Part shown: positions 379 through 23,371 of the stretch, in pieces
Layout of the letters: each line of letters starts with the position of its first letter
Numbering within the stretch: the first letter of the stretch is position 1
IMG/VR virus record: IMGVR_UViG_3300042922_001009
Span: 1-31,601 of that record
DNA length: 31,601 nucleotides
DNA from: a virus
Strand: one strand, 5' to 3'
Position numbers and translations under genes: made by a program
Notes under the pieces: generated by a model
Told to the model about the DNA's origin: nothing
Databases searched by the model: none
Seen by the model: the letters and a program-made list of their open reading frames with translations, nothing else

Positions 379-392
379 ATTAGTGGACTAAA
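379..392 (-). promoter_or_regulatory. Dispersed operator-like site (13/14)
   Basis: The minus strand reads TTTAGTCCACTAAT. The site overlaps the integrase stop codon (380-382) and lies 39 bp upstream of the HTH gene start, between two co-directional genes. Confidence 0.65.
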
Positions 393-1528
393 AGGGAAGA
401 GGGAACGGGCATCCGGTTGGCGAGTTCTGCCTCGCGACCGGTGGTCGCCTGGTATGCCATGGCTGCCACGGTCGTGGAGTGGCCGAGGAATGCCATGGTC
501 TCGCGCAACGTCGCTCCAGCCTGAGCGTGCATGGTGCCTGCGAAGCCGCGGAGGTCGTGCTCTCGGACTTCGCCTTTCACCTCCGCCGCCTCGCGGGCCT
601 TGTCCCACTTGCGGTTGAACGTCGAGTCGGTGAGGTACTCGTAGCGCGGTGCAGGCTCGAAGAGCAGCGAGTCGGGGGAGGGGCCGACGTGCTTCTCGAG
701 GTGCTCTTTGATTGCCGGCGTGAGGGCTGCGGGCAGTACAGCCTCCCGCTCGTCGCCCAGCTTCCCCTTGAGGTCGCCGATCTCCCACCCGATCGTGCGG
801 ACCCACTGGACCTGACGGTGGATCCGAATGACGACCTGCTCGGGGCCGTCGACCGAGGTCGCTACGAACTTGACGTCCTGGCGCGTGAGGCCGCGCCACT
901 CAGATAGGCGGCACCCTCCGTACGCAGCGATCACGATCGCGAGGCGCAGTTCCTCGGGCATGGCATCGATGAGCGACACCAGTTCACCCAGTGTCGGCGG
1001 TCGGTGCTTCTTACCCGTCGACGTCCGGCACAGCTTTGAGGCGACCGGGTTCTCGTCGAGCAGCTTGTCCTCGACGGCCGTGTTCAGGATGGCGCGGAGG
1101 AGTCGTGCTTCATTGCCCGCAGCCGTCAGCCCTTCCTTGGAGCGCGCCGAGTGCCAACCGCGGACGACGCTGGGAGTGATGTCGGCCAGAGGCTTCGATG
1201 CGAGAGGTGCGAGGCCGCGCTCGAGCTGCCGCTCGTACTCCACGCGGGTCTTCGGTCGGAGCGGCTGGCCCTTGCTCGTTACACGCGTCTTGATCCAGTG
1301 CTCGGCGTACGACCCGAAGACCGTAGAGACGACCTTGCGCGGGTCGACCCACTTGCCGCGGCTGATGTCGGATCGGGTGCCGCTCAGCCAGTCGCGTGCG
1401 TCCTGCACGGTGTCGAATGTGTGCGGCGCCTTGAAGCGAGTCTCGAGGTGCGTGTAGCGAGCTCGGTATCGCCCGGACGGCAGTCGATCGACAATGCCCC
1501 ACGACTCGCGTGACTTCTTCTTCGCCAT
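380..1528 (-). CDS. int: Tyrosine-family phage integrase
   Basis: A 382-residue site-specific recombinase that would join attP to the host tRNA gene. Residues 1-60 look like an AP2-like arm-binding domain (GRYRARYTHLETRFKAPHTF), about 65-165 is the SAM-like core-binding domain, and the rest is catalytic. The catalytic set is visible: R207 in GCRLSEWRGL, H324 and R327 in HDLRGFAG, H350 in LGHST and the nucleophile Y359 in AAMAYQ; the nine-residue H-to-Y spacing is normal. The length is typical of a full phage integrase with an arm-binding domain, matching the arm-type repeats seen at attP. The ATG at 1528 follows AGGGGAGAAAC, a good ribosome site. The attachment site lies 210-370 bp upstream of the start, and the Xis-like gene follows on the same strand. 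Confidence 0.95.
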   Translation of the reverse strand: MAKKKSRESWGIVDRLPSGRYRARYTHLETRFKAPHTFDTVQDARDWLSGTRSDISRGKWVDPRKVVSTVFGSYAEHWIKTRVTSKGQPLRPKTRVEYERQLERGLAPLASKPLADITPSVVRGWHSARSKEGLTAAGNEARLLRAILNTAVEDKLLDENPVASKLCRTSTGKKHRPPTLGELVSLIDAMPEELRLAIVIAAYGGCRLSEWRGLTRQDVKFVATSVDGPEQVVIRIHRQVQWVRTIGWEIGDLKGKLGDEREAVLPAALTPAIKEHLEKHVGPSPDSLLFEPAPRYEYLTDSTFNRKWDKAREAAEVKGEVREHDLRGFAGTMHAQAGATLRETMAFLGHSTTVAAMAYQATTGREAELANRMPVPSSLLVH

Positions 1529-1567
1529 GTTTCTCCCCTAGGTCGGCGAAGGTCACGCTAGCAGGAG

Positions 1568-1586
1568 CGTGGTACTCACGTGGTAC
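1568..1586 (+). repeat. Integrase arm-type site pair, left (P) arm
   Basis: Two direct copies of CGTGGTAC at 1568-1575 and 1579-1586, start-to-start spacing 11 bp, about one helical turn. The same pair with the same spacing occurs on the other side of the tRNA-like core at 1875-1893. Paired arm repeats flanking a core are the signature of a tyrosine-integrase attP; protein binding is inferred. Confidence 0.7.
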
Positions 1587-1602
1587 TTGGATTCGTATAA
1601 CA

Positions 1603-1616
1603 AGCAGTCCACTAAG
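1603..1616 (+). promoter_or_regulatory. Dispersed operator-like site, weak (10/14)
   Basis: The plus strand reads AGCAGTCCACTAAG; the inner ten bases AGTCCACTAA are exact. It lies 75 bp upstream of the integrase start, with its CC orientation opposite to integrase transcription, so it is a less certain member of the set. Confidence 0.45.
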
Positions 1617-1722
1617 GCGTCCTGCGTGGAAACGCACTTACGCCTGGGCATCCACTGAGGCCCGGTATCCCGCAGAAAGCCGCGGTTTCCAGGCGCAAAC
1701 GCGGCTGATGCGTGTCCTGCTG

Positions 1723-1736
1723 TTTAGTTCGCTAAA
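1723..1736 (+). promoter_or_regulatory. Operator-like palindrome beside the attP core (12/14)
   Basis: TTTAGTTCGCTAAA within a perfect 16-bp inverted repeat at 1722-1737 (GTTTAG, TTCG centre, CTAAAC). It matches the dispersed site at 12 of 14 positions and ends four bases before the tRNA-like homology, so it could bind the same regulator or a recombination accessory protein. A TTCG-loop RNA hairpin is the alternative. Confidence 0.5.
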
Positions 1737-1745
1737 CCTGGGACA

Positions 1746-1802
1746 TCTGACTGTAAATCAGACTGCTCAGCATTCGGGGGTTCGAATCCCTCACCTGCCA
1801 CC
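1746..1802 (+). other. attP: attP core: 3' half of a tRNA-Tyr gene
   Basis: Anticodon stem TCTGA (1746-1750), loop CTGTAAA with anticodon GTA for Tyr, and stem TCAGA (1758-1762). A long variable arm with a TGC/GCA stem follows, as in bacterial class II tRNA-Tyr, then the T-arm GGGGG-TTCGAAT-CCCTC (1776-1792) and the acceptor strand ACCTGCC plus ACC ending at 1802. No matching 5' acceptor strand (GGCAGGT) or D-arm lies upstream, so this is not a complete tRNA. A tRNA 3' half next to an integrase is a typical attachment core: integration restores the host tRNA. Arm-type repeats on both sides indicate an unintegrated attP. The exact crossover bases cannot be read from one att site. Confidence 0.85.
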
Positions 1803-1811
1803 GCAAGATAA

Positions 1812-1833
1812 GCCCCGGTAAAACGGGGTTTTT
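1812..1833 (+). terminator. Intrinsic terminator after the tRNA-like core
   Basis: Stem CCCCG (1813-1817) and CGGGG (1824-1828), loop GTAAAA, then five T. In the plus direction it would end a tRNA transcript once integration rebuilds the tRNA gene. The reverse strand has a weaker T-rich tail (TTATCTTG) and could also stop leftward transcription from the DUF3263 gene. Confidence 0.65.
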
Positions 1834-1861
1834 CTTTGCCCTCTTGCAGGCGAACTGCGAG

Positions 1862-2104
1862 TCAGCGGACGGGCCGTGGTACGAGCGTGGTACTTCGGGT
1901 CCTCGAATTCGCGAGGCGAGCTCGAACAGCGCTGCAGGTCTGCGGATCCATCCGGATGCCCTCGATCGAGCGCACGACGCGGTGAAGCAGCTGGTAGTAC
2001 CGAGCGGGCGCCATCCGGAGCTCGGAGTGGATGGCCTCTTCCTTGTTACTCGAGTGCACTCCCCAGCGAGCCTCGAAGGCTAGGAGCTCGGCGGTGGTGG
2101 GCAT
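1862..2104 (-). CDS. DUF3263 family small helical protein
   Basis: 80 residues. The N-terminal two thirds (LLAFEARWGVHSSNKEEAIH, then LRMAPARYYQLLHRVV) match the DUF3263 pattern known from actinobacterial chromosomes and phages: a FExRWW-like helix followed by a SPxRYYQLLN-like helix that resembles the recognition helix of an HTH. The function is not known; DNA binding is inferred from the fold-like pattern. The last residues are encoded across the right integrase arm-type repeats, so this 3' end is constrained by attP. No clear ribosome site precedes the ATG. Its place next to attP and int, where repressors often sit, makes it one of two candidate regulators for the dispersed sites. Confidence 0.7.
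   Translation of the reverse strand: MPTTAELLAFEARWGVHSSNKEEAIHSELRMAPARYYQLLHRVVRSIEGIRMDPQTCSAVRARLANSRTRSTTLVPRPVR
1875..1893 (+). repeat. Integrase arm-type site pair, right (P') arm
   Basis: Two direct CGTGGTAC copies at 1875-1882 and 1886-1893 with 11-bp spacing, the same orientation and spacing as the left arm. The second copy is followed by TTCGG, close to the TTGG after the second left copy. The pair overlaps the last codons of the DUF3263 gene. Confidence 0.7.
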
Positions 2105-2176
2105 GATGCCATTGTCCGCTCACCCACCGACACGGCTTGGGCGGCGATGTCAGTGGTCGGTCGTAGCTTCTCTCCC

Positions 2177-2587
2177 ATGACCACACTCGCCCAGGTGAAG
2201 GCCCGCCCGTTCGATGCCGCAGCTACCGGCGAACTGCCGGCCATGGTTCACGTCCGCACCCCTCAGGGGACGATCAAGGTCGGCGTCTCCCGTGAGGACG
2301 CATCCGACTACATCGAGTCCGGCCTTTTCGACATGGGACTTGCGGTGATCTCCTTGTCGGGATGGTCTGGCACGAGCAAGCGACAGATCGAGATGGCGGA
2401 GGTGCTGCCCGTGCTGAATCAGGTGTTCGGCCCGGCCGTCGTTCCGCTGCTGCGCTCCGTCATCTTGGGCGGCGGCGCCCTCTACTTCGTCGGGCTCGTC
2501 CAGGGGCGTTCGTTCGTCGCCCCGACGCTGCTGCAGGACACGGTCCTCACGCGGCGCCTGCGGGCTCGTCCGATCGCCGCGGCGTAG
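2177..2587 (+). CDS. Hypothetical protein
   Basis: 136 residues from the ATG at 2177; an in-frame ATG at 2147 would add ten residues. Neither has a clear ribosome site, and a TAGCTT element at 2162-2167 could give a leaderless message from 2177. The protein has no motif I recognise. It contains VHVRTPQGTIKVGVSREDA near the N-terminus, which could form a small beta unit, and a hydrophobic stretch near residues 85-110 (VVPLLRSVILGGGALYFVGL), possibly one membrane segment. It diverges from DUF3263 and is followed four bases later by the frameshifted gene at 2591. Confidence 0.55.
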   Translation: MTTLAQVKARPFDAAATGELPAMVHVRTPQGTIKVGVSREDASDYIESGLFDMGLAVISLSGWSGTSKRQIEMAEVLPVLNQVFGPAVVPLLRSVILGGGALYFVGLVQGRSFVAPTLLQDTVLTRRLRARPIAAA

Positions 2588-2590
2588 CCG

Positions 2591-2904
2591 ATGCCCTTAC
2601 ACCCCGACGTCCTCTCGAGGATCGCGCTCAGCGCCGCGATGGGCCGCAACCAGTACACGCGGGATACGCAGCCGATCATCGACGAGGTGCGGCAGCTCAC
2701 CGGCGGTCGGCCGGACATCCTCTACCCCGAGGTCGGCCGGTGGGTCGGGTATCACGGCATCCCGAGAACGCTGCGCTCACATCTGCGCTGCTCCATGCGT
2801 TCCCCGGCGCGGTCTCGTTCATCCGTGAAGGCCAGGAGCGACGCAACCGCGGCTCGCACAGCACGCCCTCAGTCCGGGCACCGAAGCAGCCGCCGGCCAC
2901 CTAG
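2591..2904 (+). pseudogene. Frameshifted hypothetical gene (or one-base sequence error)
   Basis: The frame opens at the ATG at 2591 (MPLHPDVLSRIALSAAMGRN) and reads sensibly through EVGRWVGYHG near 2758. Beyond that it becomes an arginine- and serine-rich string with little protein character. From about 2758 the -1 frame continues with a natural-looking sequence (PENAALTSALLHAFPGAVSF) to a TAG at 2902-2904. A single missing base near 2755-2770 would join the two into one protein of roughly 104 residues. It follows the previous gene at operon spacing. Function unknown. A real pseudogene, a sequencing error and programmed frameshifting are all possible; no classic slippery heptamer is visible. 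Confidence 0.5.
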
Positions 2905-2961
2905 ACAGAAGCTGGATAGCGCGGGCTGGTACGCTCCCCCGATTCCAGGGAGAAGGACGAC

Positions 2962-3108
2962 ATGCACAGAGCGTCGCGACACGAACGGCACCAGCGACGC
3001 AGACAGCGTCAGATTTCCGGGCGGATGCACTGGTCCATCTATGCCGGCGCTGCACTACTCCTCCTTGGCGTGGCGACCCTCGTCACGGCGGCGCTACTCA
3101 CCCACTGA
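2962..3108 (+). CDS. Small membrane protein
   Basis: A 48-residue reading frame with a good ribosome site (GGGAGAAGGACGAC before the ATG). The first 20 residues are very basic (MHRASRHERHQRRRQRQ), followed by one hydrophobic helix (about residues 28-46, rich in L, A and V) ending just before the stop. That layout predicts a single-pass protein with its N-terminus in the cytoplasm. It lies between the frameshifted gene and the acyltransferase on the same strand. A role in host surface change or exclusion is only a guess. Confidence 0.5.
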   Translation: MHRASRHERHQRRRQRQISGRMHWSIYAGAALLLLGVATLVTAALLTH

Positions 3109-3216
3109 GTGACGAAATGCCACCGGCCAACCTCCTGAGAGGCAGTCGGGGCCTGGGGTGAATGGAGTGAGTGGTGGGCAACCGCTACGATCAGCGCATG
3201 CCATCAGGGGGGCCGC

Positions 3217-4329
3217 ATGACTAAGGACGTGCACGTCGCGCCGCCGACCGACGTCAGCGCGGGCCGCACGGCCAGCAGCCGCGACATCACAATCGACTTC
3301 ATCCGCACCCTGTGCATCGTGAGCATGACCGTCGCCCACGTCGCATTCGCGTCCCTCGCGTACCGGGTGACGCACGCGATGATCTGGTTCGACGGCGCGA
3401 TGGGTTTCGTCCTTCTGTCTGGCCTTGTCGTGGGTCTGGTCTACCGGCGGGTCATCGAACGCAGAGGGCTCCGCGCTGCCCAGGTGAAAGCGGTCAGGCG
3501 GGCGGGCGTCGTCTATGCCGCGCACCTTCTCCTTTGCGCCGTCGCGTTCATCGTGGCAAGCGTGCACGCCGGCCGTGACGAGATCTATGCAGGGCTGGGT
3601 GACCACCCGGCCGTCTGGGACTGGGTGGTCGCGGCACTCACGCTTCAGGTGAACCCGCAGCGGGCGGCGATCCTCTCTCTGTACGTGGTCCTTATGCTGC
3701 TCACACCCCTCGCGTTCTGGGCGCTCAAGCGCGGACGCTGGGTGTTCGTCGTCGCAGGGGTCACAGTCCTCTACATCGCCGGTCAATTGTTCCCGTCCGC
3801 GCTCACCCTCCCTCGTGTGCCGGGCGTGTTCGGTGAGATCAACTGGGCGCTGTGGCAGGCGCTGTACTTCGTCGCTCTCATCGCAGGCTGGTACTGGGCG
3901 AAGGTTCGTGACTTCATCCTGCGGCGAAACGTCCGCATCGTCTTGATCGTGGCGACTGTACTTGTTGCGGTCGCGGCACGGCTATCGACCCGGCTAGCGG
4001 GTCCAGCGAGCACAGCAGTGGCATGGCTGTTCGGTGATGGTCAGATGGGACCGGGAACGATCGTCGTGGCGTTTCTCGTCGTTGCGACGCTGTACGCGGT
4101 ATTTGCGTACGTCAGCGCGTGGGCTCCCCGGTTGATGACCGAGCTCGGGCGCGTGGGGCGACGGAGCCTCGACTGTTACGTGATCCTGGGCATCGCGGTA
4201 CTGGTCGTACCGACCGTATGGGAGCCAGGGCGAGGCAGCGCGATATCGATGCTCTACGCAGCAGGAATGCTAGTGATCATGTGGGCATGGTGCTGGCTGC
4301 GTGACGCCCGCCAGAACGCTCGCCGCTGA
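3217..4329 (+). CDS. OpgC-like multi-pass membrane acyltransferase
   Basis: 370 residues with about ten hydrophobic helices from residue 27 to the C-terminus. The N-terminal part (RDITIDFIRTLCIVSMTVAH, then a WFDGAMGFVLLSG segment) has the form of the OpgC / acyltransferase-3 membrane family, where an RxxDxxR-like opening helix and a conserved glycine-rich second helix precede further membrane spans. OpgC transfers succinyl groups to periplasmic glucans in proteobacteria; family relatives acylate surface polymers, and phage-borne relatives modify surface sugars. The start at 3217 follows AGGGGGGCCGC. It runs opposite to the virion genes and ends convergently with them at 4357. Its place between attP and the virion operon is typical of lysogenic-conversion cargo. 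Substrate unknown. Confidence 0.7.
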   Translation: MTKDVHVAPPTDVSAGRTASSRDITIDFIRTLCIVSMTVAHVAFASLAYRVTHAMIWFDGAMGFVLLSGLVVGLVYRRVIERRGLRAAQVKAVRRAGVVYAAHLLLCAVAFIVASVHAGRDEIYAGLGDHPAVWDWVVAALTLQVNPQRAAILSLYVVLMLLTPLAFWALKRGRWVFVVAGVTVLYIAGQLFPSALTLPRVPGVFGEINWALWQALYFVALIAGWYWAKVRDFILRRNVRIVLIVATVLVAVAARLSTRLAGPASTAVAWLFGDGQMGPGTIVVAFLVVATLYAVFAYVSAWAPRLMTELGRVGRRSLDCYVILGIAVLVVPTVWEPGRGSAISMLYAAGMLVIMWAWCWLRDARQNARR

Positions 4330-4356
4330 TCACAGCGCACGGCGGACGTTTCTCAT

Positions 4357-4545
4357 TTACCCGAGATGCGATCCAGCCGCGCAGCGGGCAGCGATGATCG
4401 CCACGCACCATGCGACTAGACCGAGGACTAGCGCGGCAATCCAACCGGTCGCACCCGTGCCGGCGGCAACCGTCAAGCAAGACGTGGCAGACATGAGTAA
4501 CCCGGCGTCGGGATCCACTCGGACTCTGCAAATGGCGTCCGTCAT
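4357..4545 (-). CDS. Small membrane protein at end of virion operon
   Basis: 62 residues (starts MTDAICRVRVDPDAGLLMSA) with one clear C-terminal membrane helix (GWIAALVLGLVAWCVAIIAA) and a weaker hydrophobic stretch before it. Its ATG overlaps the stop of the preceding gene as ATGA. As the last gene of the virion operon and a short membrane protein it could be a holin, but no endolysin lies beside it and the helix pattern alone does not prove it. Confidence 0.5.
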   Translation of the reverse strand: MTDAICRVRVDPDAGLLMSATSCLTVAAGTGATGWIAALVLGLVAWCVAIIAARCAAGSHLG

Positions 4546-4700
4546 CGTGGCTCGTATGCGGACCACGCGGCATCGACCTCTTCCCTGGGAATCCCGAGAA
4601 CCGCGAAGGCTTCGTACACGTCACCGTCATCAGCAGCCCAGTAGGCGAGGTGGCCGAATGCTTCGGTAGCGATGCACCCGATAGCGGTTGTCCTGTCCAT
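4542..4700 (-). CDS. Small hypothetical protein
   Basis: A 52-residue frame (MDRTTAIGCIATEAFGHLAY at the start) with a GTAGGAGCAGG ribosome site. It is acidic toward the middle (WAADDGDVYEAF) and soluble, with no recognised family. It sits 15 bp after the tail spike gene and overlaps the next gene by ATGA, so the three are one transcript. Confidence 0.55.
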   Translation of the reverse strand: MDRTTAIGCIATEAFGHLAYWAADDGDVYEAFAVLGIPREEVDAAWSAYEPR

Positions 4701-4715
4701 GTTTGCGACCTGCTC

Positions 4716-6728
4716 CTACGACTGGAAGAACTTGATGAAGTCCCACGCGGTCGTGGGATCCAGGTTGGCCTGTCCGGAGAAGCCGATTCCTACGGCGGTG
4801 GAGAGCGCGGAATCCGTAACGGTGGCGATCGTCGTGCCGTTGACCTTCCAAGAAATCGAATCACCGTCGAGGATGACCTCGATTGCGTCAGTGGCGGCCG
4901 CTAGGGGGCCGGCGGCGCCGACCGAGATCGCCGTCCCGTCGATGATCTTCTGGAGTTGCCAAGTCGAAACCCCGTTTGTCGGACGAGGCGTGATGCGCCA
5001 GTAGTTTGTCGAGCTGAGATAGCGCAACAGCAGGTTTGCTCGACGATTGCCATCCATTTGCAGGGCTGCGAGCTGCGTCGTGAGGCGCCCGTTTGCCCTC
5101 GCCGCAAGGGTCGCGTAAACGGTCGCTGCGCCCGAGACAGCCTTGAGGTGACCTAGCCCGTCACGCCCCATGCTGAGGCCGTTCTGGGCCCACGTCGCGA
5201 ACTCGAGACCGTCCTGCGCGACTTTGTCGGTCATCTTGGATGTGGCCGGCCCCTCGAAGAGGTCAGCGATGAGCGGGAACGCATTCGGCGCCGCCGACTC
5301 CGTACCGCGGTTGCGATCTACGAGGACGCCAACTCGGGCCTGCTGGATCACGTACCCGCCGCTTCGGAAGTCGTTATCGGTGACCTCGAGACCGGTGGCG
5401 GTCTTCAGCGCGCCGAGAATTGCGAGGTCGTACTGTCCGTTCGCCCACGCCGTGATCCGTCGCAGCTGCAGGTCCTGCGACGAGGCAGAAATCGACAGAC
5501 CCGACCCCGCGCAGTCGTGCACGCGGATGTCGTCGATTGCGGTTCGAGGCCCGATGAAGGCGCTCGAAGGCGCAAGGACGCCGTGCGTCTTCGCCTTGAG
5601 GATCTCACCAGAAAAGCGGTAGCCGCCCGCGTGCGAGTCGCCAAGCATGAGTCCCACGTTGTCGGACGTGGACATCAGCCGAACGGCTCCGTTAATGCCG
5701 GCGCTGGGCGCGAGGATCGTCTTATCGTGCAGCACGCCTGCGTACGTGTTGCCGATCGACGTGATGTCAGCGACGAGCCCGTCGGAGCCGCAGTCGCGGA
5801 ATCCGACGAAGTTGTTGATGACCGTCGCGCGGATGTAAGAGCCCCTGGTGAAGGGGAAGGGCGGACTGGGCTGCGTCTCCGTGAAGACGCCATGGAATCC
5901 GCAGTTCTTCGCCGTCACGTCGAGGTAGAAGTTCTCGATCTCGTACCTGCCCGTGCCGATTCCGAAGCCCGACCCGCCAGACGTGGCGAGCGGGTCGACG
6001 CCCATGACCTTGATGCCACGTCCACAGCCATCCGCCTCGCCGGTCACCACGACATCGACGAGGAAATCGCACCCGAAACCGGTGCCCCAGGAGTTCTTGA
6101 CCAGGATGTTGGTGAAGCGCGCTCGCTTGAGCCCCTGGATGAACCACCCCTTGAGCCCGGTGGTGTAGGTGGAGTTGGTTTGAGCGGAGCAGTCGACTAC
6201 GTGCGGATCACAGTAGACGTCCTCAATGTCACCGAAGGCGTAAGCCGCTACGAACGGCGTGGCATCCGCCGGAGCCTGGAAAATTACCCCGCGCTGAGAG
6301 GACGTTGCAATTCCCGCGCCCGACTTCTTGGTGATGCAACGCGCAGGATTGGACCCGCCGATCGTTCCCGCCGTCTTCGACAGCTTGTAGATCCCATCGG
6401 GGACTGCGTACTGGCGTGGACGCTTGTCCACGTTCCAGAGTGCCTCGAAGGTGTCCTCCGCCCGCTGGAAGATGACAGAGTTGTCGCCCGGGCTAGAGCC
6501 GTCAGAAACGAGCTGCTCGCCCTCTTGGACGAACTCCTCAATCGGAACAACAGCAGCGAAATCGGCGACGGCCGCCATGATCGCCTCGCTCAGTCCGGCC
6601 TCGGATAGGCGCCCCTCGGTGACGATCGCCGATGTCGTGTCCACTGCTTCGTTGATCGTCGCGATCGCTGCATTCAGCTTGACGTCGTAGGGCTTCTCGC
6701 CGCGGACGGGAAGAGTGATTTCAGGCAC
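4716..6728 (-). CDS. Tail spike / receptor-binding protein with beta-helix and LamG-like domain
   Basis: 670 residues. Residues 1-75 form a short adaptor typical of phage tail-fibre N-termini (MPEITLPVRGEKPYDVKLNA, then a helix). About 100-490 is rich in G, N, D and V with regular rungs such as IHVHDCAGSG-like turns (seen here as IDDIRVHDCAGSGLSISASS), which is the pattern of a right-handed parallel beta-helix of the pectate-lyase type. About 495-670 looks like a concanavalin/LamG jelly roll (DAIEVILDGDSISWKVNGTT, ending GIGFSGQANLDPTTAWDF). The protein would bind, and perhaps cut, host surface glycan. It follows the connector-like gene by only six bases. No tail tube or tape measure gene lies between head genes and this gene, which is unusual. 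Confidence 0.8.
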   Translation of the reverse strand: MPEITLPVRGEKPYDVKLNAAIATINEAVDTTSAIVTEGRLSEAGLSEAIMAAVADFAAVVPIEEFVQEGEQLVSDGSSPGDNSVIFQRAEDTFEALWNVDKRPRQYAVPDGIYKLSKTAGTIGGSNPARCITKKSGAGIATSSQRGVIFQAPADATPFVAAYAFGDIEDVYCDPHVVDCSAQTNSTYTTGLKGWFIQGLKRARFTNILVKNSWGTGFGCDFLVDVVVTGEADGCGRGIKVMGVDPLATSGGSGFGIGTGRYEIENFYLDVTAKNCGFHGVFTETQPSPPFPFTRGSYIRATVINNFVGFRDCGSDGLVADITSIGNTYAGVLHDKTILAPSAGINGAVRLMSTSDNVGLMLGDSHAGGYRFSGEILKAKTHGVLAPSSAFIGPRTAIDDIRVHDCAGSGLSISASSQDLQLRRITAWANGQYDLAILGALKTATGLEVTDNDFRSGGYVIQQARVGVLVDRNRGTESAAPNAFPLIADLFEGPATSKMTDKVAQDGLEFATWAQNGLSMGRDGLGHLKAVSGAATVYATLAARANGRLTTQLAALQMDGNRRANLLLRYLSSTNYWRITPRPTNGVSTWQLQKIIDGTAISVGAAGPLAAATDAIEVILDGDSISWKVNGTTIATVTDSALSTAVGIGFSGQANLDPTTAWDFIKFFQS

Positions 6729-6734
6729 GTCGAG

Positions 6735-7214
6735 TTACCATCCGTATCCGTTGGGGTCCAGCGCAGGAGCCGGAGAAGCAGGGGTGAACGGCCGTGATGG
6801 TGCGTACGGCGAGAACGGCTCGCAGTCGTGGAGCGGCGTGAAGCCGACGATCTGGAAGAAGTCATTGGCTGCAGCGACGTCGCCGCCGTCCGCGTGTGCG
6901 GCCCAGGCGCGCGCGATGGTGATGAGGTCGCCAGCGCGGCCCTTGGTGTCGAGCGTGAGGTCATCGGTCTTCGTTGACCGGCCCTGCTGCGCGTACTGGG
7001 CAGCGAGCGAGAAGTAGAGGTTTGCGGCGGCGCGGTAGATCGAGCCGGACGCGAGTCCGAGCGCCGCTTCCAGTGCGAGGTCGGACCACACGGCGTAGTT
7101 GGCCTGGCCCTCGATCGCTGGCTCGAGCGGAGTGCTGGAAGTGTCACCAACGAGCGCGCGCAGCATTCCGACCGGCGTGGCCGGCTGAATGGGGGAGGCT
7201 CCAGGGTTCGGCAT
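6735..7214 (-). CDS. Head-tail connector-like (adaptor) protein
   Basis: 159 residues. The core (about 15-115) has a helical pattern with a short acidic opening (LRALVGDTS), a helix holding LEAALGLASGSIYRAAANLY, and a later LTLDTKGRAGDLITIARAWA. This is the arrangement of gp6/gp15-type head-completion adaptors, where a helical bundle bearing many Ala and Leu docks under the portal. The C-terminal 40 residues are proline-rich and probably disordered. It follows the capsid and head-fibre genes, as adaptors do. The assignment rests on pattern and position, not on a diagnostic residue. Confidence 0.55.
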   Translation of the reverse strand: MPNPGASPIQPATPVGMLRALVGDTSSTPLEPAIEGQANYAVWSDLALEAALGLASGSIYRAAANLYFSLAAQYAQQGRSTKTDDLTLDTKGRAGDLITIARAWAAHADGGDVAAANDFFQIVGFTPLHDCEPFSPYAPSRPFTPASPAPALDPNGYGW

Positions 7215-11803: not shown

Positions 11804-13504
11804 TCACCAGGGCATGCCGGAGAGCACCATTTCCTCTTCGAGCATCTCGTACGGGTCGACGCCCACTTTGTCGCCGGGCTTCAGATCGCCAAGGGGGTTG
11901 TCGACGAGTGCAGCGGTGTCGAGCACGGCGTACATAGCTGCATCCGCCCGATCTGGGGAACCGCCCATCACGGTCTTCATGTCCGATTTCTTGTCGATCT
12001 TGATGGCACCATTGATGAGCGAGTAGGTGATGAGCATGAGCTCATCCCGAAGTTGGGTGTCATTCGGATCGAGGTCGAGCCGTCCATCGCGCATTTGATC
12101 TGCGAAGTGATCGTGGATCTCGTCGCGCCAGATGCGCCAGCGTGCGATGTCGCTGGAGCTCTTCGAGCTCACGATCCGGATCGGCACCCCGTAACAACGA
12201 TTCGAGAACTCCTCGAGCCGCATCAGGTCCGTGACGACACCTGAGCCGACGGCGTTACCGTCGATGCGGACTTCTGCGGCGTTGACGTACTGAGCGATTG
12301 CATGGATGCGGCGGGCATTGGAGAGCGTGTCCTCCTTCGACCAGACGCCGCTCGTCTCGCGCTGCTCGTCGCCGTCCATGTACGGGATGGTCTTGTCGAA
12401 GACCCGGAGCTGGCCCCCGCGATTCACGTAGACAACGGACTCATCTTCGCCGGTGGTCGCGATATCGACGCCCAACGTGGGTCGCTGTTCATCGCCGGGA
12501 ATGATGATCGTCTCCCGCGCCAGGTTGATGTGATCTTCGGAGAAGAACGAGTTGTCGGCATCGCCGGGGAACTCGCCCAGCACTTTGGATCGGAACCGGC
12601 CGTTGGGAGTGCCGCCGGCGCGACGCATGAGGTCGAGCTTCTCGTCGTAGTACAGCTCGCCGCCGGTCATCCAGACGCGCTCTTTGTGCCCCACCCATTT
12701 GGCCGTCGTGAGGCCCTTCAACATGAGGGCTTGCTTCTCGGGGTTGTCCGGGTAGACGATCTCGCCTGTCATGCCAGGGAGGTCGTAGGCGGAGATGGTG
12801 TGCAGGTTGGCCTCACCCTTCTCTGCCTCAGCCGTGAACTTGTTGTAGAACTCGGTGCCGCGCTTGTCCGGGTTTCCGATGCCGACCATTCGGGCCTCGT
12901 CAGATGTGATGAGCGCCTCGATCGCCGTGAAGATCGCCTCGGAGACGCCGCCAGCCTCATCGAGGAGGATCAGAGATCGGCCACCCTCGCGCCGGATGCC
13001 CTGGAAGGTCGAGACGGCGTCCGTGGGGCTCGGGACTCGCGCTAGAGCGAGCGAAATGTTGCCACCCGGGGTGCGGTACTGCCAGGCCCCCTGCTCACTG
13101 ATCCAGCCCGGCCAGGGCATCGGCTCGTTGCGCTGCAGGGCGGCGCCCTTCACCATTCCGTAGCTGGTCTTGAGGTAGTGGAAGATGCCCTGCTCAACCT
13201 GAGTGAGCGTCGGGGCGGTGATGATCGCGAGGGACTCTTCGGGAGGGAAGCAGGTGACCCACCACATCGCCCATCGCGCGGCTTGGTAGGTCTTACTCGT
13301 ACCATTTGCGGACTTGACGAACGTTCGCGGGATCGGACTGAACAGGGCGTCCTGACCAATCTCCTGCATTTTCTCGTAGGTGCGTTCACCGAGCACGTCA
13401 GCCTGCCATGCGATGAAATCTCGCTGGTACAGGGACTTCTTGGACTTCTGGGTGATCTCCCGCATGAGCGCGTCGAAGACCCGCGGGTCGAGGTTCTGAA
13501 GCAT
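11804..13504 (-). CDS. terL: Large terminase subunit (packaging ATPase/nuclease)
   Basis: 566 residues. The ATPase domain has a Walker A-like SANGTSKT at 65-72 and Walker B LILLDEAGG with D182 and E183; the S-A-N-G-x-S-K-T form is a known terminase variant of GxGKT. The nuclease domain has the RNase H-like acidic set: D347 in GVDIATTGEDES, D415 in DGNAVGSG, and a late RADAAMYA near 535. The enzyme pumps DNA into the prohead through the portal and cuts it. Its ATG overlaps the stop of the small subunit by one base (TAATG), indicating coupled translation. Confidence 0.92.
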   Translation of the reverse strand: MLQNLDPRVFDALMREITQKSKKSLYQRDFIAWQADVLGERTYEKMQEIGQDALFSPIPRTFVKSANGTSKTYQAARWAMWWVTCFPPEESLAIITAPTLTQVEQGIFHYLKTSYGMVKGAALQRNEPMPWPGWISEQGAWQYRTPGGNISLALARVPSPTDAVSTFQGIRREGGRSLILLDEAGGVSEAIFTAIEALITSDEARMVGIGNPDKRGTEFYNKFTAEAEKGEANLHTISAYDLPGMTGEIVYPDNPEKQALMLKGLTTAKWVGHKERVWMTGGELYYDEKLDLMRRAGGTPNGRFRSKVLGEFPGDADNSFFSEDHINLARETIIIPGDEQRPTLGVDIATTGEDESVVYVNRGGQLRVFDKTIPYMDGDEQRETSGVWSKEDTLSNARRIHAIAQYVNAAEVRIDGNAVGSGVVTDLMRLEEFSNRCYGVPIRIVSSKSSSDIARWRIWRDEIHDHFADQMRDGRLDLDPNDTQLRDELMLITYSLINGAIKIDKKSDMKTVMGGSPDRADAAMYAVLDTAALVDNPLGDLKPGDKVGVDPYEMLEEEMVLSGMPW

Positions 13505-14004
13505 TACTGCTCGACCGCCTGGTGCCGGTCGAGCTCGGCTTGCGCGTGGTACAAGCCCTCCTTCAGCGCCTCATCCCAGAGCTCCGGGTCTACCGCGCCT
13601 CGCAGTGCGCCCTTCATGTACGAGAGCGCCATGTCGATCGCACGGCCCATGATGCGAGCCTGGTTGCCGTAGAGCGCGTTGAGCTCGGCTTCCGAAGCCG
13701 CCTTGCGCTTGTCTAGCCGGTCGCCGATGGCCTTCAGGAACGAGAGTTGGACTTTGGCGTTGTCGAGGTCGAAGTGCTGGCCTTCTAGCTTCGCCAGAAC
13801 GCGGCGGAGTTTCCAGGTGACGATGAAGTCTTCGTCGGCGCGCTCGAGCCATGTGTGCGACTTGACGAGCTCGTCCTTGCGGAGGCGAACTCGCGCCGGC
13901 GAGATCACTCCACCCAGCTCCCGGCTGATTTCTTCCGGGCTCATGTGGTCAGCCAGCAGCAAGATCTTCTCGTCGAGAAGAGAGAGCGTGAGGTCTGCGG
14001 CCAT
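13504..14004 (-). CDS. terS: Small terminase subunit
   Basis: 166 residues, all helical and charged. The N-terminal half contains LLADHMSPEEISRELGGVIS, which reads as a helix-turn-helix, followed by RVRLRKDELVKSHTWLERAD. This fits the DNA-recognition domain of a small terminase; the rest would form the oligomerisation helices. Its place immediately upstream of terL with a one-base overlap is decisive. It starts the virion operon, and a 12/14 copy of the dispersed site lies 9 bp before its ATG. Confidence 0.75.
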   Translation of the reverse strand: MAADLTLSLLDEKILLLADHMSPEEISRELGGVISPARVRLRKDELVKSHTWLERADEDFIVTWKLRRVLAKLEGQHFDLDNAKVQLSFLKAIGDRLDKRKAASEAELNALYGNQARIMGRAIDMALSYMKGALRGAVDPELWDEALKEGLYHAQAELDRHQAVEQ

Positions 14005-14012
14005 ATTGTCAG

Positions 14013-14026
14013 TTTAGTTGCCTAAA
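14013..14026 (-). promoter_or_regulatory. Dispersed operator-like site before the virion operon (12/14)
   Basis: The minus strand reads TTTAGGCAACTAAA. It lies 9 bp upstream of the small terminase start, so a bound protein would cover the start region of the whole virion operon. Confidence 0.6.
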
Positions 14027-14080
14027 ACGCACCGAACGATGTTAAAGTGATCGAGGACGCCTCCTCCGGTAAAGTGGTCA

Positions 14081-14113
14081 GGCCCCCAACGAGTCCCTAG
14101 CTCGTTGGGGGCC
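14081..14113 (-). terminator. Strong hairpin between the DGQHR gene and terS
   Basis: A perfect 13-bp stem (GGCCCCCAACGAG at 14081-14093 with its complement at 14101-14113) and a 7-base loop. It lies 17 bp downstream of the stop of the leftward DGQHR gene, so it probably ends that transcript. The T-rich side (TTCTCATTTC) is on the plus strand, however, so it may work better rightward or in both directions. A role in a cos/pac region upstream of terS is an alternative. Confidence 0.6.
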
Positions 14114-14129
14114 TTCTCATTTCCCGCTG

Positions 14130-15533
14130 CTACTTCTTGGCGCGGTGCGCTTGCTTGATGTCTTCTGCCTCGTTGCGCATCTCCACGTCCAGCTTCTTCG
14201 TGTTGTGGTCGGGCGCGAAGTCGATGCCTTCGTCAGGGTCGACCTCGGGAACCGGGGCCGCCAGTGGCTCGGAGTAGACGAACTCCGCCTTGTCGACGGC
14301 CCAGCCCCACATCGCCTCGGAGAGGTTCATGATGTCCTGGCGGCGGCCGTTGGGTCCGAAACTGTTCAGGTTGAACGTGTCCTCGGGGGTGTGCTGGCGC
14401 CAGATCGAGTTGTCGTGCACCGGAGCGGCCATGTGGGGCGCGAGGGCGGTGAAGTAGTCCTCGACCATCTGGTCCGAGAACGCGTGGTTGCTTCGGAGCT
14501 CGTGGTAGGTGCCGGCGAGGATTCGGAGCATCAAGGGCGAGCCGAGCAGGCTCGTCTGGCGGAGACGGTCGGGGAGCAGGGTGCCGTTCTCGACCGCGGC
14601 CAGTGGCGGGAAGGCGGCCGTGAGGATGTCGAGGAACTTCGAGGCCTTATTGGCGACGTCGACCTCGTTGAGCTCCCGCTCCATGATCTTGCCGACGCGG
14701 CCCTCGATGCCGACCGTCACGGATCGGATGATCTCGGTGACGTGGCGGGCCGAGAGGAGGTAGGGGCCCGTGCGTCCGAGGCGATCGTTCTCGGGGTCAA
14801 CTCGGCTGACAAGGAGCGGGTGCTCGGTGACGAGTGCGAGGGCTCGGTTGACGACCTTGCGCTTGTCGAACCGTGCCTTCACCGACGCCGAGATGCCGAG
14901 CGCGTTGTCCGCGATGTCGAAGAACATCTGGCGGTACTGCTGGATGTCGTCGGTTACCTGGATCTCGACGGAGACGCGTTCCTGGTAGAAGCGGTCGCGC
15001 TTGAGTTCGAGGTCGGAGATTTCCTTCGCCGCGTCCTTGGCGAGCTTGGAGTTCTTCCCCTCGACCTTCTCAGCGCGGTTGCGGTGGTCGCGGGCCTTGT
15101 TGATCTGGTCGGCGAGCATCTCGAGTGCGAGGTGGAAGCCGAGGATGCGGTGCTGGCCGTCAAGGATCTGGACGTCGCCCTGCTTGCGCTTCGGGTAGGA
15201 CAGGACGCCGAAGTCCGTGACTCCGTCGCCCGCTTCGCGATCGCCGGCGAACTCGAAGATGTCCGGGGCGCGAAGGATGAGACCGGGGATGACCCAGTTG
15301 TCGTGCTCGAGGTAGTACTTCGCGAAGCCCTGCGCGTGTGCAAGCCGGATCTGTCGGTTTCCCGGATTCGGGCTGTCCGGGTTGGGCTTCATGATGTTGT
15401 TGACGATCTGGTCCGGCGTCAGCGCGACGAGGAAGACGGTACGTCGGCCCTGTCGATAGCGCGTGGCGTAGAACTTCTCATCAGTCGAGTAGCTGACGGT
15501 CGGTACAGACGTTGTTGCAGTCGAGGTCGACAT
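14130..15533 (-). CDS. DGQHR-domain protein, DndB-like
   Basis: 467 residues. The hallmark ILDGQHR (DGQHR at 125-129) is followed by a helix GFHLALEML, then a charged coiled region (about 145-180) and a second conserved block near VSVEIQVTDDIQQYRQMFFD. This is the DGQHR / DndB family, distantly ParB/sulfiredoxin-like. Host DndB represses DNA phosphorothioation genes, and relatives occur with other DNA-modification systems. No dndCDE, sulfurtransferase or modification gene is seen here, so the role is not a complete Dnd system. It has its own transcription unit: a 12/14 dispersed site 20 bp upstream and a hairpin downstream, between the virion and early operons. Possible roles are regulator, anti-defence factor or exclusion protein. 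Confidence 0.8.
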   Translation of the reverse strand: MSTSTATTSVPTVSYSTDEKFYATRYRQGRRTVFLVALTPDQIVNNIMKPNPDSPNPGNRQIRLAHAQGFAKYYLEHDNWVIPGLILRAPDIFEFAGDREAGDGVTDFGVLSYPKRKQGDVQILDGQHRILGFHLALEMLADQINKARDHRNRAEKVEGKNSKLAKDAAKEISDLELKRDRFYQERVSVEIQVTDDIQQYRQMFFDIADNALGISASVKARFDKRKVVNRALALVTEHPLLVSRVDPENDRLGRTGPYLLSARHVTEIIRSVTVGIEGRVGKIMERELNEVDVANKASKFLDILTAAFPPLAAVENGTLLPDRLRQTSLLGSPLMLRILAGTYHELRSNHAFSDQMVEDYFTALAPHMAAPVHDNSIWRQHTPEDTFNLNSFGPNGRRQDIMNLSEAMWGWAVDKAEFVYSEPLAAPVPEVDPDEGIDFAPDHNTKKLDVEMRNEAEDIKQAHRAKK

Positions 15534-15552
15534 TTAGCTCTCCGTGGAAACA

Positions 15553-15566
15553 AGTAGTGGACTAAA
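15553..15566 (-). promoter_or_regulatory. Dispersed operator-like site at a possible promoter (12/14)
   Basis: The minus strand reads TTTAGTCCACTACT, 20 bp upstream of the DGQHR gene. Just upstream on that strand are TTGCGA and, after 18 bases, TACACA, a possible -35/-10 pair that would place the site around the transcription start. The promoter is tentative. Confidence 0.55.
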
Positions 15567-15759
15567 TGTGTACCACGGGACAGGAGGAGGTCGCAATGAG
15601 GCGCGCCGGGCGTGAGTAGCGGAACCACATGTCGGATGCCTATGGTGTACTCCACTTACTCGAACAAATGTACGAAAGCAGGGGGCCATGACCGTAGACG
15701 TGAAAGAGACAGACGGCGGCCGATCAATGTCGATCGACCGCCGTGAGGGCGCCGTATTC

Positions 15760-16452
15760 CTAGACGACGGGAGGTTCTGCCTTCAGTTCGACCGCGGGGT
15801 CCTGATCCGCGCGATCGAGCGAGAGCTCGGCGTGCTGATCTTTGACCTCCGGCACGATGAGATCGACCAGGCCGCGCAGATGTTCTAGCGAAGAGTCGTT
15901 CAGCAGCGTGAGATCGAAGTCCGATCCTTGTACCCCACTCTCGCTCGCGTGAGACGAAGTCGTCTCGCCGAGACCGGGCCGGTCGACCCAGACCGCCCGG
16001 CCCGCGAAAGCCCGGATCATCGAGAGCTCGTTCGGGAACCGGATGCCCGTCACCACGACCGGGATGTCGGAGTACAGGTAGTCGTCGATCTTCCGGGCCA
16101 TGACGTTCACCCAGACGTTCTCGCCGATCATGTTCCGACCTACCTCGGTGCCGAGGTGCTGCAGAAGGCGTCGGACCTCGGGGGTCTTCTTCGCCTCGAC
16201 ATAACCGACTGCTTCACACAGCTCCGCGTACCGCATCTGCTTGCGCGGAGTGTTCCAGCCGTAGCCGGGGGGCCCCTCTCGATACTGAACGAACTCATCG
16301 ACGAGAACGATCGGGTCCAATGCGAGCATGGCTTCGTGCAAGGCATCGCTCATGCCGAGCTTCACGAAGCCGTGGCGATCGACGAGCCGGTCCGCCACCA
16401 CGTCTTTCCCGGCTCGCAGCCGGCCCCCGAGGCCGATCACCATGGCGGTCAT
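15760..16452 (-). CDS. Deoxynucleoside monophosphate kinase
   Basis: 230 residues. The P-loop is GLGGRLRAGKD with K16, followed by VVADRLVDRHGFVKLGMSDA, the pattern of T4 gp1-like dNMP kinases; a later TGIRFPNELSMIRAFAG block forms the usual R-x-x-N-E region. It would phosphorylate dNMPs to dNDPs for phage DNA synthesis. A longer frame reaches 16470, but the ATG at 16452 overlaps the preceding stop as ATGA and begins just before the P-loop, as family members do. It is the last gene of the long leftward operon and is coupled to a nucleotidase of opposite activity. The C-terminal 40 residues are variable and overlap a plus-strand frame of doubtful reality. Confidence 0.82.
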   Translation of the reverse strand: MTAMVIGLGGRLRAGKDVVADRLVDRHGFVKLGMSDALHEAMLALDPIVLVDEFVQYREGPPGYGWNTPRKQMRYAELCEAVGYVEAKKTPEVRRLLQHLGTEVGRNMIGENVWVNVMARKIDDYLYSDIPVVVTGIRFPNELSMIRAFAGRAVWVDRPGLGETTSSHASESGVQGSDFDLTLLNDSSLEHLRGLVDLIVPEVKDQHAELSLDRADQDPAVELKAEPPVV

Positions 16453-17018
16453 GCGCTTGCTCCCGTCCACAGCATCTCAGCAGCAATGAGCAACGTGTCG
16501 GGATCCCACTGCACGATGCGTCGACGCTGAACATGCTGGTTGTAGGGCTGATCGAAGAGGATGTGCTCCCACTCCGGCATCAGGGATCCCTTCACCTCCG
16601 GCTTGTCGTCGATCAGAATGTCGCCTCGAACGAGTGTTTTGTCGGCAGTGATGACCACACGCGCACCCCACTGGGATCCGTAGTGCTTGACGATCCAGTT
16701 CAGCTTGTCGCTCGCGCAGGTGGGGTTGCTGACCCATGGGCTTGTGACGATGCGGACGTCATGCCCGGCCTTCACTGCCTCCTTCAGCGCCTGCTTCGCG
16801 CCCGGGATGGGCTGCAGCTGCGCGTAGAAGCCCGGTTCGACCATGACCGAGGCGATGATGTCCTTCTCTTCCTCGGTGCGGCCATCGTTCAGGTTGAACG
16901 TGCGCTGGTCGGCGTGCCGGGGGATGAGTCGCGCTGCTTCGCCATGTCGCTCGAGCGACTCGCCGTAGGCGTGCCCCCAGTCGGCAATGACGCCATCCAT
17001 GTCCACGAGAATCCGCAT
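16449..17018 (-). CDS. 5'(3')-deoxyribonucleotidase (HAD family)
   Basis: 189 residues. HAD motif I is DMDGVIADW with D6 (nucleophile) and D8; motif II is the Ser/Thr of VRIVTSPW; motif III is the Lys region around ITADKTLVRG; motif IV is ILIDDKPEV with two Asp. This is the NT5C type, which removes the phosphate from dNMPs. The length matches the family. The start overlaps the previous stop by one base (TGATG) with a GGAGGAAGTC ribosome site, and the end overlaps the dNMP kinase start. Together they could shape the dNMP pool, for example by removing unwanted dNMPs. Confidence 0.85.
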   Translation of the reverse strand: MRILVDMDGVIADWGHAYGESLERHGEAARLIPRHADQRTFNLNDGRTEEEKDIIASVMVEPGFYAQLQPIPGAKQALKEAVKAGHDVRIVTSPWVSNPTCASDKLNWIVKHYGSQWGARVVITADKTLVRGDILIDDKPEVKGSLMPEWEHILFDQPYNQHVQRRRIVQWDPDTLLIAAEMLWTGASA

Positions 17019-23357: not shown

Positions 23358-23371
23358 CTTTGTGGGCTAAA
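23358..23371 (-). promoter_or_regulatory. Dispersed operator-like site (11/14)
   Basis: The minus strand reads TTTAGCCCACAAAG. It lies 35 bp before a 13/14 copy in the opposite orientation, like the pair at 22639/22693. Confidence 0.5.

Follow-up and report, generated by a model that had tools for sequence, protein, structure and literature searches.

DndB (TIGR03233) is an ATP-dependent regulator of dnd operons, and a DndB-like bacterial protein is described as binding both ATP and GTP (PMC12704722). DGQHR domains have been placed in the ParB/Srx fold (PMC4619093), and KorB of IncP-1 plasmids is described as a ParB-type repressor with the operator TTTAGC(C/G)GCTAAA (PMC2680271). LexA-controlled antirepressors have been reported from Salmonella prophages (PMC3121763), and the consensus of the actinobacterial LexA box is given as tCGAAC-N4-GNNCGa (PMC9380542).

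The window analysed here comprises an entire virus record (31,601 bases), a 31.6-kb fragment of a phage. A gene on its minus strand (14130–15533; ATG start) encodes a protein of 467 aa with the motif LDGQHRILGFH at residues 124–134, and the match of this protein to the Pfam family DndB (PF14072; 87.1 bits against a gathering score of 29.1, E 1.6e-24) bears out the DGQHR signature of DndB noted in a first-pass annotation. A PF14072 score above the gathering score together with the DGQHR motif marks the protein as a member of the DndB-like/DGQHR superfamily. The DndB equivalog of NCBIfam (TIGR03233) gave only 17.8 bits against a cut-off of 328, and the NCBIfam model DGQHR (TIGR03187) a borderline 56.9 bits, narrowly missing the 58.85 required. 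Judged by these profiles, the gene belongs to the superfamily but lies outside the DndB equivalog.

Neither a DndC-type protein (PF01507) nor TGT (PF01702) was matched in any of the 23 records, most of which are fragments, and the positive controls were recovered in 14 of 14 cases; a search for DndE likewise yielded no match but was not counted, because its control also matched nowhere. A phosphorothioation or deazaguanine modification system was therefore rejected for all 23 records, and the DGQHR gene appears, as far as tested with DndC and TGT, to stand outside any phosphorothioation system. The earlier statement that no modification genes accompany it holds for these two types, and close relatives inside a complete modification system, which would have argued against the roles first proposed for the gene, were looked for and not found.

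Relatives of the DGQHR protein are unevenly distributed. None was found by tblastn among 50,697 records of cultured phages (E 0.01), and only two of 72,556 plasmid records contained one (36–37% identity); both are actinobacterial, and in both an orphan DndB-like gene is annotated as DNA sulfur modification protein DndB. Viral contigs yielded one relative in a single-sequence scan and 35 in an alignment-based scan, of which 31 were strong; the four weak loci (L115–L118) were left out. A genome scan gave 98 relatives, of which 80 were kept: a prophage in a Microbacterium MAG (L005), actinobacterial copies with 35–40% identity (L006–L015), and otherwise distant proteins of Paenibacillus and Cohnella. 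Long matches (at least 300 bits) occurred in three of 299 sampled genomes at the level of the family, in seven of 396 at the level of the order, and in six of 394 at the level of the class, each time including the Microbacterium MAG. Six matches in host genomes (L186, L187, L190–L193) have stop codons inside the matched stretch and are perhaps decaying copies.

In the window, the DGQHR gene stands between the head genes (TerS, TerL, portal, protease, and capsid) and a nucleotide-metabolism operon. On one side, the candidate for the small terminase subunit (TerS; 13504–14004, minus strand), assigned by position and size as it matched no Pfam or PHROG family, is followed by the large subunit (TerL; 11804–13504, minus strand; phrog_2); on the other side lie the genes of a deoxynucleoside monophosphate kinase (dNMP kinase; 15760–16470, minus strand) and a 5' deoxynucleotidase (NT5C; 16449–17018, minus strand) of the nucleotide-metabolism operon. 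The position relative to TerS recurs in most of the 31 strong viral contigs: in 25 of them, the DGQHR gene is located directly upstream of a TerS-type gene on the same strand; it lies away from TerS in the other six (L108, L109, L110, L111, L112, and L114). Each of the 14 loci found in a scan with a TerS profile has the DGQHR gene upstream, although this profile is biased by having been built from carriers and most of its loci are in records already known. Among cultured phages, the TerS family was represented only by two records of Clavibacter phage CN1A (27.5% identity), in which a terminator and a tRNA occupy the place of the DGQHR gene. TerL is of two kinds (26–29% or 47–69% identity) and was rejected as a linked partner, because the TerL-profile loci with at least 4 kb of upstream sequence are a mixture of carriers (L130, L131, L133) and non-carriers (L136, L139, L141).

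The phylogeny called for in the first-pass annotation, of phage and host DGQHR proteins, covered 37 proteins. In this tree, the 21 TerS-linked representatives form a single clade (support 91/93) that adjoins L108–L110, and the host and plasmid copies fall apart from it. The alignments and all counts based on 21 phages exclude the near-duplicate contigs L086, L093, L097, L101, L102, and L005; L014 and the plasmid copies L003 and L004 are outside alignment A2, and the tree includes the latter two. The distances among DGQHR proteins correlate only slightly better with those of TerS (r 0.55) and the small gene described below (0.54) than with those of portal (0.44) and TerL (0.42). By its recurrence beside TerS, the DGQHR gene belongs to the core of a family of temperate actinophages, viruses of soil bacteria. 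Its arrangement with terS was not found in the titles and opening lines of abstracts of the literature on DGQHR and on DndB in combination with prophage and terminase.

The conservation of the protein also bears on whether it has a function at all. A host DndB-type regulator might have been acquired once and then kept without any selected function, and the host and plasmid copies do stand alone in varied contexts. However, the gene is intact in all 21 TerS-linked phages, with 44–67% identity to the protein of the window, and an alignment of 35 sequences has 21 invariant positions, including GQHR, with the D nearly invariant. Such conservation requires purifying selection and leaves a functionless remnant hardly credible.

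The gene forms a unit of its own. A terminator-like hairpin of 15 pairs (14080–14114, minus strand) separates it from TerS, with a terminator score on the plus strand and a weaker T-run on the minus strand, and a second, likewise terminator-like hairpin of 14 pairs (15713–15744, minus strand) closes the upstream nucleotide-metabolism operon; a scan of positions 13400–16000 for sigma-70 promoters found none. With hairpins on both sides, the DGQHR gene is a separate unit between the virion and early operons with a hairpin downstream, just as first annotated.

Within this unit, a previously unannotated small gene (15688–15888, plus strand; 66 aa) is oriented divergently from the DGQHR gene, with a 3' end that runs into the terminal part of the dNMP kinase reading frame on the opposite strand. 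Its coding status is supported by an excess of changes at third codon positions, which vary most in all eight pairs compared. Its products, about 55–100 aa long with a DGGR...FDR pattern, recur across the phages: a profile built from 22 of them matched 24 of the 25 TerS-linked contigs, the last of which (L102) is cut off, and also matched L167, which was not used in building the profile, and L110, a contig in which the DGQHR gene and TerS lie apart. The same profile matched nothing near the 12 DGQHR copies of hosts and plasmids and found nothing better than E 4.5 elsewhere in the loci examined. An 81-aa reading frame at the corresponding position in L200 was not counted as a member (hhalign probability 14%). 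Seven members that were scanned matched no family in Pfam or in PHROG, where L002 had a single hit at E 0.029; tblastn found no match in the 50,697 records of cultured phages (E<=1), and the six loci found in viral contigs with the small gene are all in records already known to carry the DGQHR gene. By its distribution, the small gene is a conserved partner of the DGQHR gene.

The intergenic region contains a LexA/SOS-type box (TCGAACAAATGTACGA; 15660–15675, plus strand), which is the best match in the window to the actinobacterial consensus (1 of 12 positions mismatched) and lies 12 bp before the small gene and 126 bp before the DGQHR start. By its match to the consensus, it qualifies as the LexA-type box in a promoter region that is expected of a LexA-controlled phage regulatory unit. 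Boxes with at most two mismatches in 12 positions are present between the two genes in nine of 21 phages and absent from this gap in the other 12; their frequency elsewhere in the loci predicts 0.34, and 500 shuffles gave at most two. The box precedes the small gene by 12–30 bp in six of the nine phages; in L089 and L092 it lies 11–12 bp before the DGQHR gene rather than the small gene, and in L104 between them.

A second type of site links the unit to the rest of the phage. The operator-like site of the first-pass annotation is real (AGTAGTGGACTAAA on the plus strand; 15553–15566, minus strand; 20 bp before the ATG of the DGQHR gene) and belongs to a family of 15 sites within three mismatches of TTTAGTCCACTAAA between positions 379 and 30343 of the window, where the simulation of 30 sequences yielded 0.13 such sites on average and never more than one. 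Another member (TTTAGTTGCCTAAA; 14013–14026, minus strand) precedes the start codon of TerS by 9 bp. The sites, of the type TTTAG-NNNN-CTAAA, are spread over the window in the style of stoperators: 12 of the 15 are fully non-coding, while 82% of the window is coding, and by a hand count 13 of the 14 that can be assigned are oriented along transcription, the exception being that at 23358, with the site at 1723 lying between opposed genes. Prophage G005 has 23 sites within three mismatches of TTTAGNCNACTAAA. Thus, the gene, site, and hairpin of the original description of the locus stand, but it overlooked the small gene and the SOS-type box and did not recognize that the operator is spread genome-wide.

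The distribution of operator types hints at what reads them. In a comparison of 18 phages, three or more exact copies of TTAGTNNACTAA are present in each of the window, L085, L087, and L090, a single one in L113, and none in the others. The first four form one clade on the DGQHR tree (one change), whereas the trees of the small gene, TerS, and TerL require three changes and that of portal two, in a comparison of four against 14 phages with a clade support of only 77/70. Because the operator type follows the DGQHR tree, these data hint that the reader may be the DGQHR protein or the product of a gene that travels with it. Another candidate may be the helix-turn-helix protein of prophage G005 (L120:14541–15026): counting its own, eight of 22 records encode a relative, and the window stops short of the corresponding place. 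Upstream of the DGQHR homologs of hosts and plasmids, TTTAG/CTAAA half-sites were absent from 11 of 12 regions (L003, L004, L006–L015); the region of L004 has two half-sites with a spacing unlike that of the phage operator.

A gene directly upstream of terS might also serve DNA packaging, as packaging start sites are commonly located near terS. The DGQHR protein could be an NTP-dependent DNA clamp of the ParB kind, loading close to terS and helping TerS to choose or hold phage DNA; this would agree with the constant position beside TerS in 25 of 31 contigs and all 14 TerS-profile loci, maintained while TerL is of two kinds, and with the ParB-type folds in the structural comparison below. However, a hairpin parts the gene from terS in most of 20 gaps, the gene has its own promoter unit and keeps its divergent partner in L110 without TerS, and the cultured relatives with similar terminases lack it, which renders a packaging role unlikely.

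The predicted structure of the DGQHR protein (pLDDT 89.5) comprises a part that resembles the ParB/Srx NTP-binding fold (residues 23–213), followed by a helical C-terminal domain. The first 13 rows of the structural comparison (Z 6.6 to 5.5) include SspE, PadC, BrxU, ParB, Noc, and KorB, which belong to one superfamily; the values for SspE (Z 6.6, rmsd 4.7, 149 residues aligned), PadC (6.4, 3.2, 99), and ParB (6.0, 3.0, 94) are all under Z 8 and thus below the level of a clear match. A library of viral structures gave matches down to E 3e-7, several of them named GmrSD N-terminal, but Foldseek with the whole model found nothing in the PDB at E<=0.001, and a sequence profile search of solved structures gave no match at E<=1. 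When the C-terminal domain was compared by itself (model pLDDT 95.9), no clear relative emerged among solved structures (Z at most 4.6, for a designed repeat protein; no Foldseek match at E<=0.001), and neither a helix-turn-helix nor a nuclease domain was recognized in it. NTP binding by the phage protein is probable by analogy with its family.

A similar fold is found in defense enzymes, which is relevant to two of the roles first proposed for the gene, a decoy against host defense and an exclusion factor. Both predict an accessory gene in variable places, but the DGQHR gene is instead fixed beside terS. As a mimic of DndB or of the DGQQR domain of SspE/GmrSD, the protein might block Dnd, Ssp, or type IV defense of the host during infection or induction, in line with its sequence kinship with DndB and with the high rank of SspE and BrxU in the structural comparison. 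Since anti-defense genes usually vary and move, its status as a syntenic core gene argues, as a weak test, against counter-defense, which seems distinctly improbable. A role in superinfection exclusion or prophage defense, with the small protein as control or immunity partner, would be consistent with the NTPase-type fold apparently shared with the restriction effectors SspE and BrxU, the two-gene unit with its SOS-type box, and the copy on a Hoyosella plasmid that is located within a defense-rich stretch. However, the C-terminal half is devoid of a detected nuclease domain, the gene heads the late operon rather than being among cargo genes, and the TerS-linked copies form one clade; such a role is therefore also quite improbable.

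The distribution of the unit fits a job related to lysogeny, as it goes with temperate members of the family. A tyrosine integrase is encoded in 17 of 22 virus records, and prophage G011 has, by eye, a recombinase-like reading frame in its place. The nearest cultured relatives, phages CMP1 and CN1A, possess terminal repeats and lack the DGQHR gene; no integrase is annotated in the stretches read (1–50000 of 58,652 in CMP1, 42000–56789 of 56,789 in CN1A), and both are presumably virulent.

The window itself lacks a complete tRNA gene (ARAGORN), but positions 1741–1801 correspond to the 3' part of one, with a tRNA-Tyr-like anticodon region by eye. Its position between phage genes makes this segment a likely attP and the window a likely piece of the circular form. 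The structural genes at 380–7214, like those of prophages G005, G009, and G011, are seemingly split by the integration site, and the prophages have head genes at one end and tail genes plus integrase at the other (both by eye). The presence of head genes without tail genes had suggested a satellite, a capsid-forming island, which was rejected because tail genes are present in the full prophages G005, G009, and G011, at the other end beside the integrase or recombinase (by eye); the window is accordingly taken as part of an ordinary temperate phage in its circular form. The same region contains a spike-like gene of 670 aa (4716–6728; no Pfam match) directly after the candidate head–tail adaptor, and a gene for an OpgC-type acyltransferase (3217–4329) between the spike-like gene and the likely attP; prophage G005 has another acyltransferase-like reading frame at the matching place (by eye) and a pentapeptide-repeat protein in its early region (L120:666–1382).

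A regulatory role, which was among those first suggested for the DGQHR gene, is favored by its isolation as a unit, the phage operator, the SOS-type box, the divergent partner, and its slot before terS, and has gained support from its fixed position between hairpins. Other temperate phages keep late regulators in the slot just before terS. Points against this role are the 12 phages with no SOS-type box in the gap, the boxes next to the DGQHR start in L089 and L092, the six contigs with the gene away from TerS, the low Z values of the fold matches, the C-terminal domain with no recognized helix-turn-helix, the helix-turn-helix protein as another candidate reader of the operator, the low support of the operator clade, the small lead in the distance correlations, and the host and plasmid relatives that stand alone, nearly all with no half-site upstream. 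The gene order, the partner gene, the SOS-type boxes, and the operator family before the DGQHR gene and terS are observed. We tentatively propose, at somewhat less than an even chance, that the DGQHR protein is an NTP-binding phage regulator that, together with its small partner, couples host DNA damage to the control of lytic and late genes. The control unit, at the border of the early nucleotide-metabolism operon and the packaging and head operon, would consist of the DGQHR protein encoded leftwards and the protein of about 65 aa encoded rightwards, with a promoter region, SOS box, and operator between them. In the lysogen, host LexA would keep the small gene off, and the phage operators would hold down the promoters of the DGQHR gene and terS. 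Loss of LexA upon DNA damage would lead to synthesis of the small protein, which would alter the nucleotide-bound state or the DNA binding of the DGQHR protein and thereby free lytic and late (terS) transcription. DNA binding, an interaction of the two proteins, and the direction in which control runs are our inferences. A mild further hint of transcription control may come from two Amycolatopsis-type host copies (L009, L011), whose DGQHR homologs adjoin a gene for an ECF-like sigma factor (sigma-70 family).

A more far-reaching version, which we consider unlikely, would make the DGQHR protein itself a multi-site repressor, a DndB/ParB-fold NTP switch that reads TTTAG-NNNN-CTAAA genome-wide in the manner of KorB on plasmids, with the SOS-controlled 66-aa protein as its antirepressor. 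This would amount to a lysogeny switch on the DndB/ParB fold, which, to our knowledge, has not been described in the context of phage immunity. If the unit functions as the proposed regulator with a small partner, it would link host DNA damage to phage late genes via a nucleotide-binding protein and explain part of the control in a family of temperate actinophages. The clear phage context, the fixed partner, and the candidate binding sites render the function of an orphan DndB-like protein testable.

Among the described systems, DndB shares with the phage protein PF14072, the DGQHR signature, and the likely nature of an NTP-binding regulator beside its own promoter, but the phage protein is far below the equivalog cut-off, has no dndC-type gene, and would regulate, if anything, phage genes. 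KorB resembles it in the apparent ParB-type fold and in multi-site operators with TTTAG...CTAAA arms distributed over the element, but has an operator spacer of three rather than four nucleotides; a helix-turn-helix is not recognized in the phage protein, whose binding is predicted, and the arms common to the operators of the phage and of the KorB/KorA plasmids may be due to chance. The stoperators described for Cluster A mycobacteriophages are likewise numerous short intergenic sites, with an asymmetric center oriented along transcription (PMC9283540), whereas the operator here is an inverted repeat of a different sequence. SspE, GmrSD, and BrxU, the DGQQR-domain enzymes, have an N-terminal domain of apparently the same superfamily, with SspE and BrxU among the first structural rows, but their HNH nuclease part was not found in the phage protein. 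The antirepressors of Salmonella prophages are reportedly encoded by small phage genes behind a LexA-type box. Although the small protein of the actinophages belongs to an unrelated family and its role is predicted, it shares with them both this arrangement and the expectation that it acts on a phage regulator.
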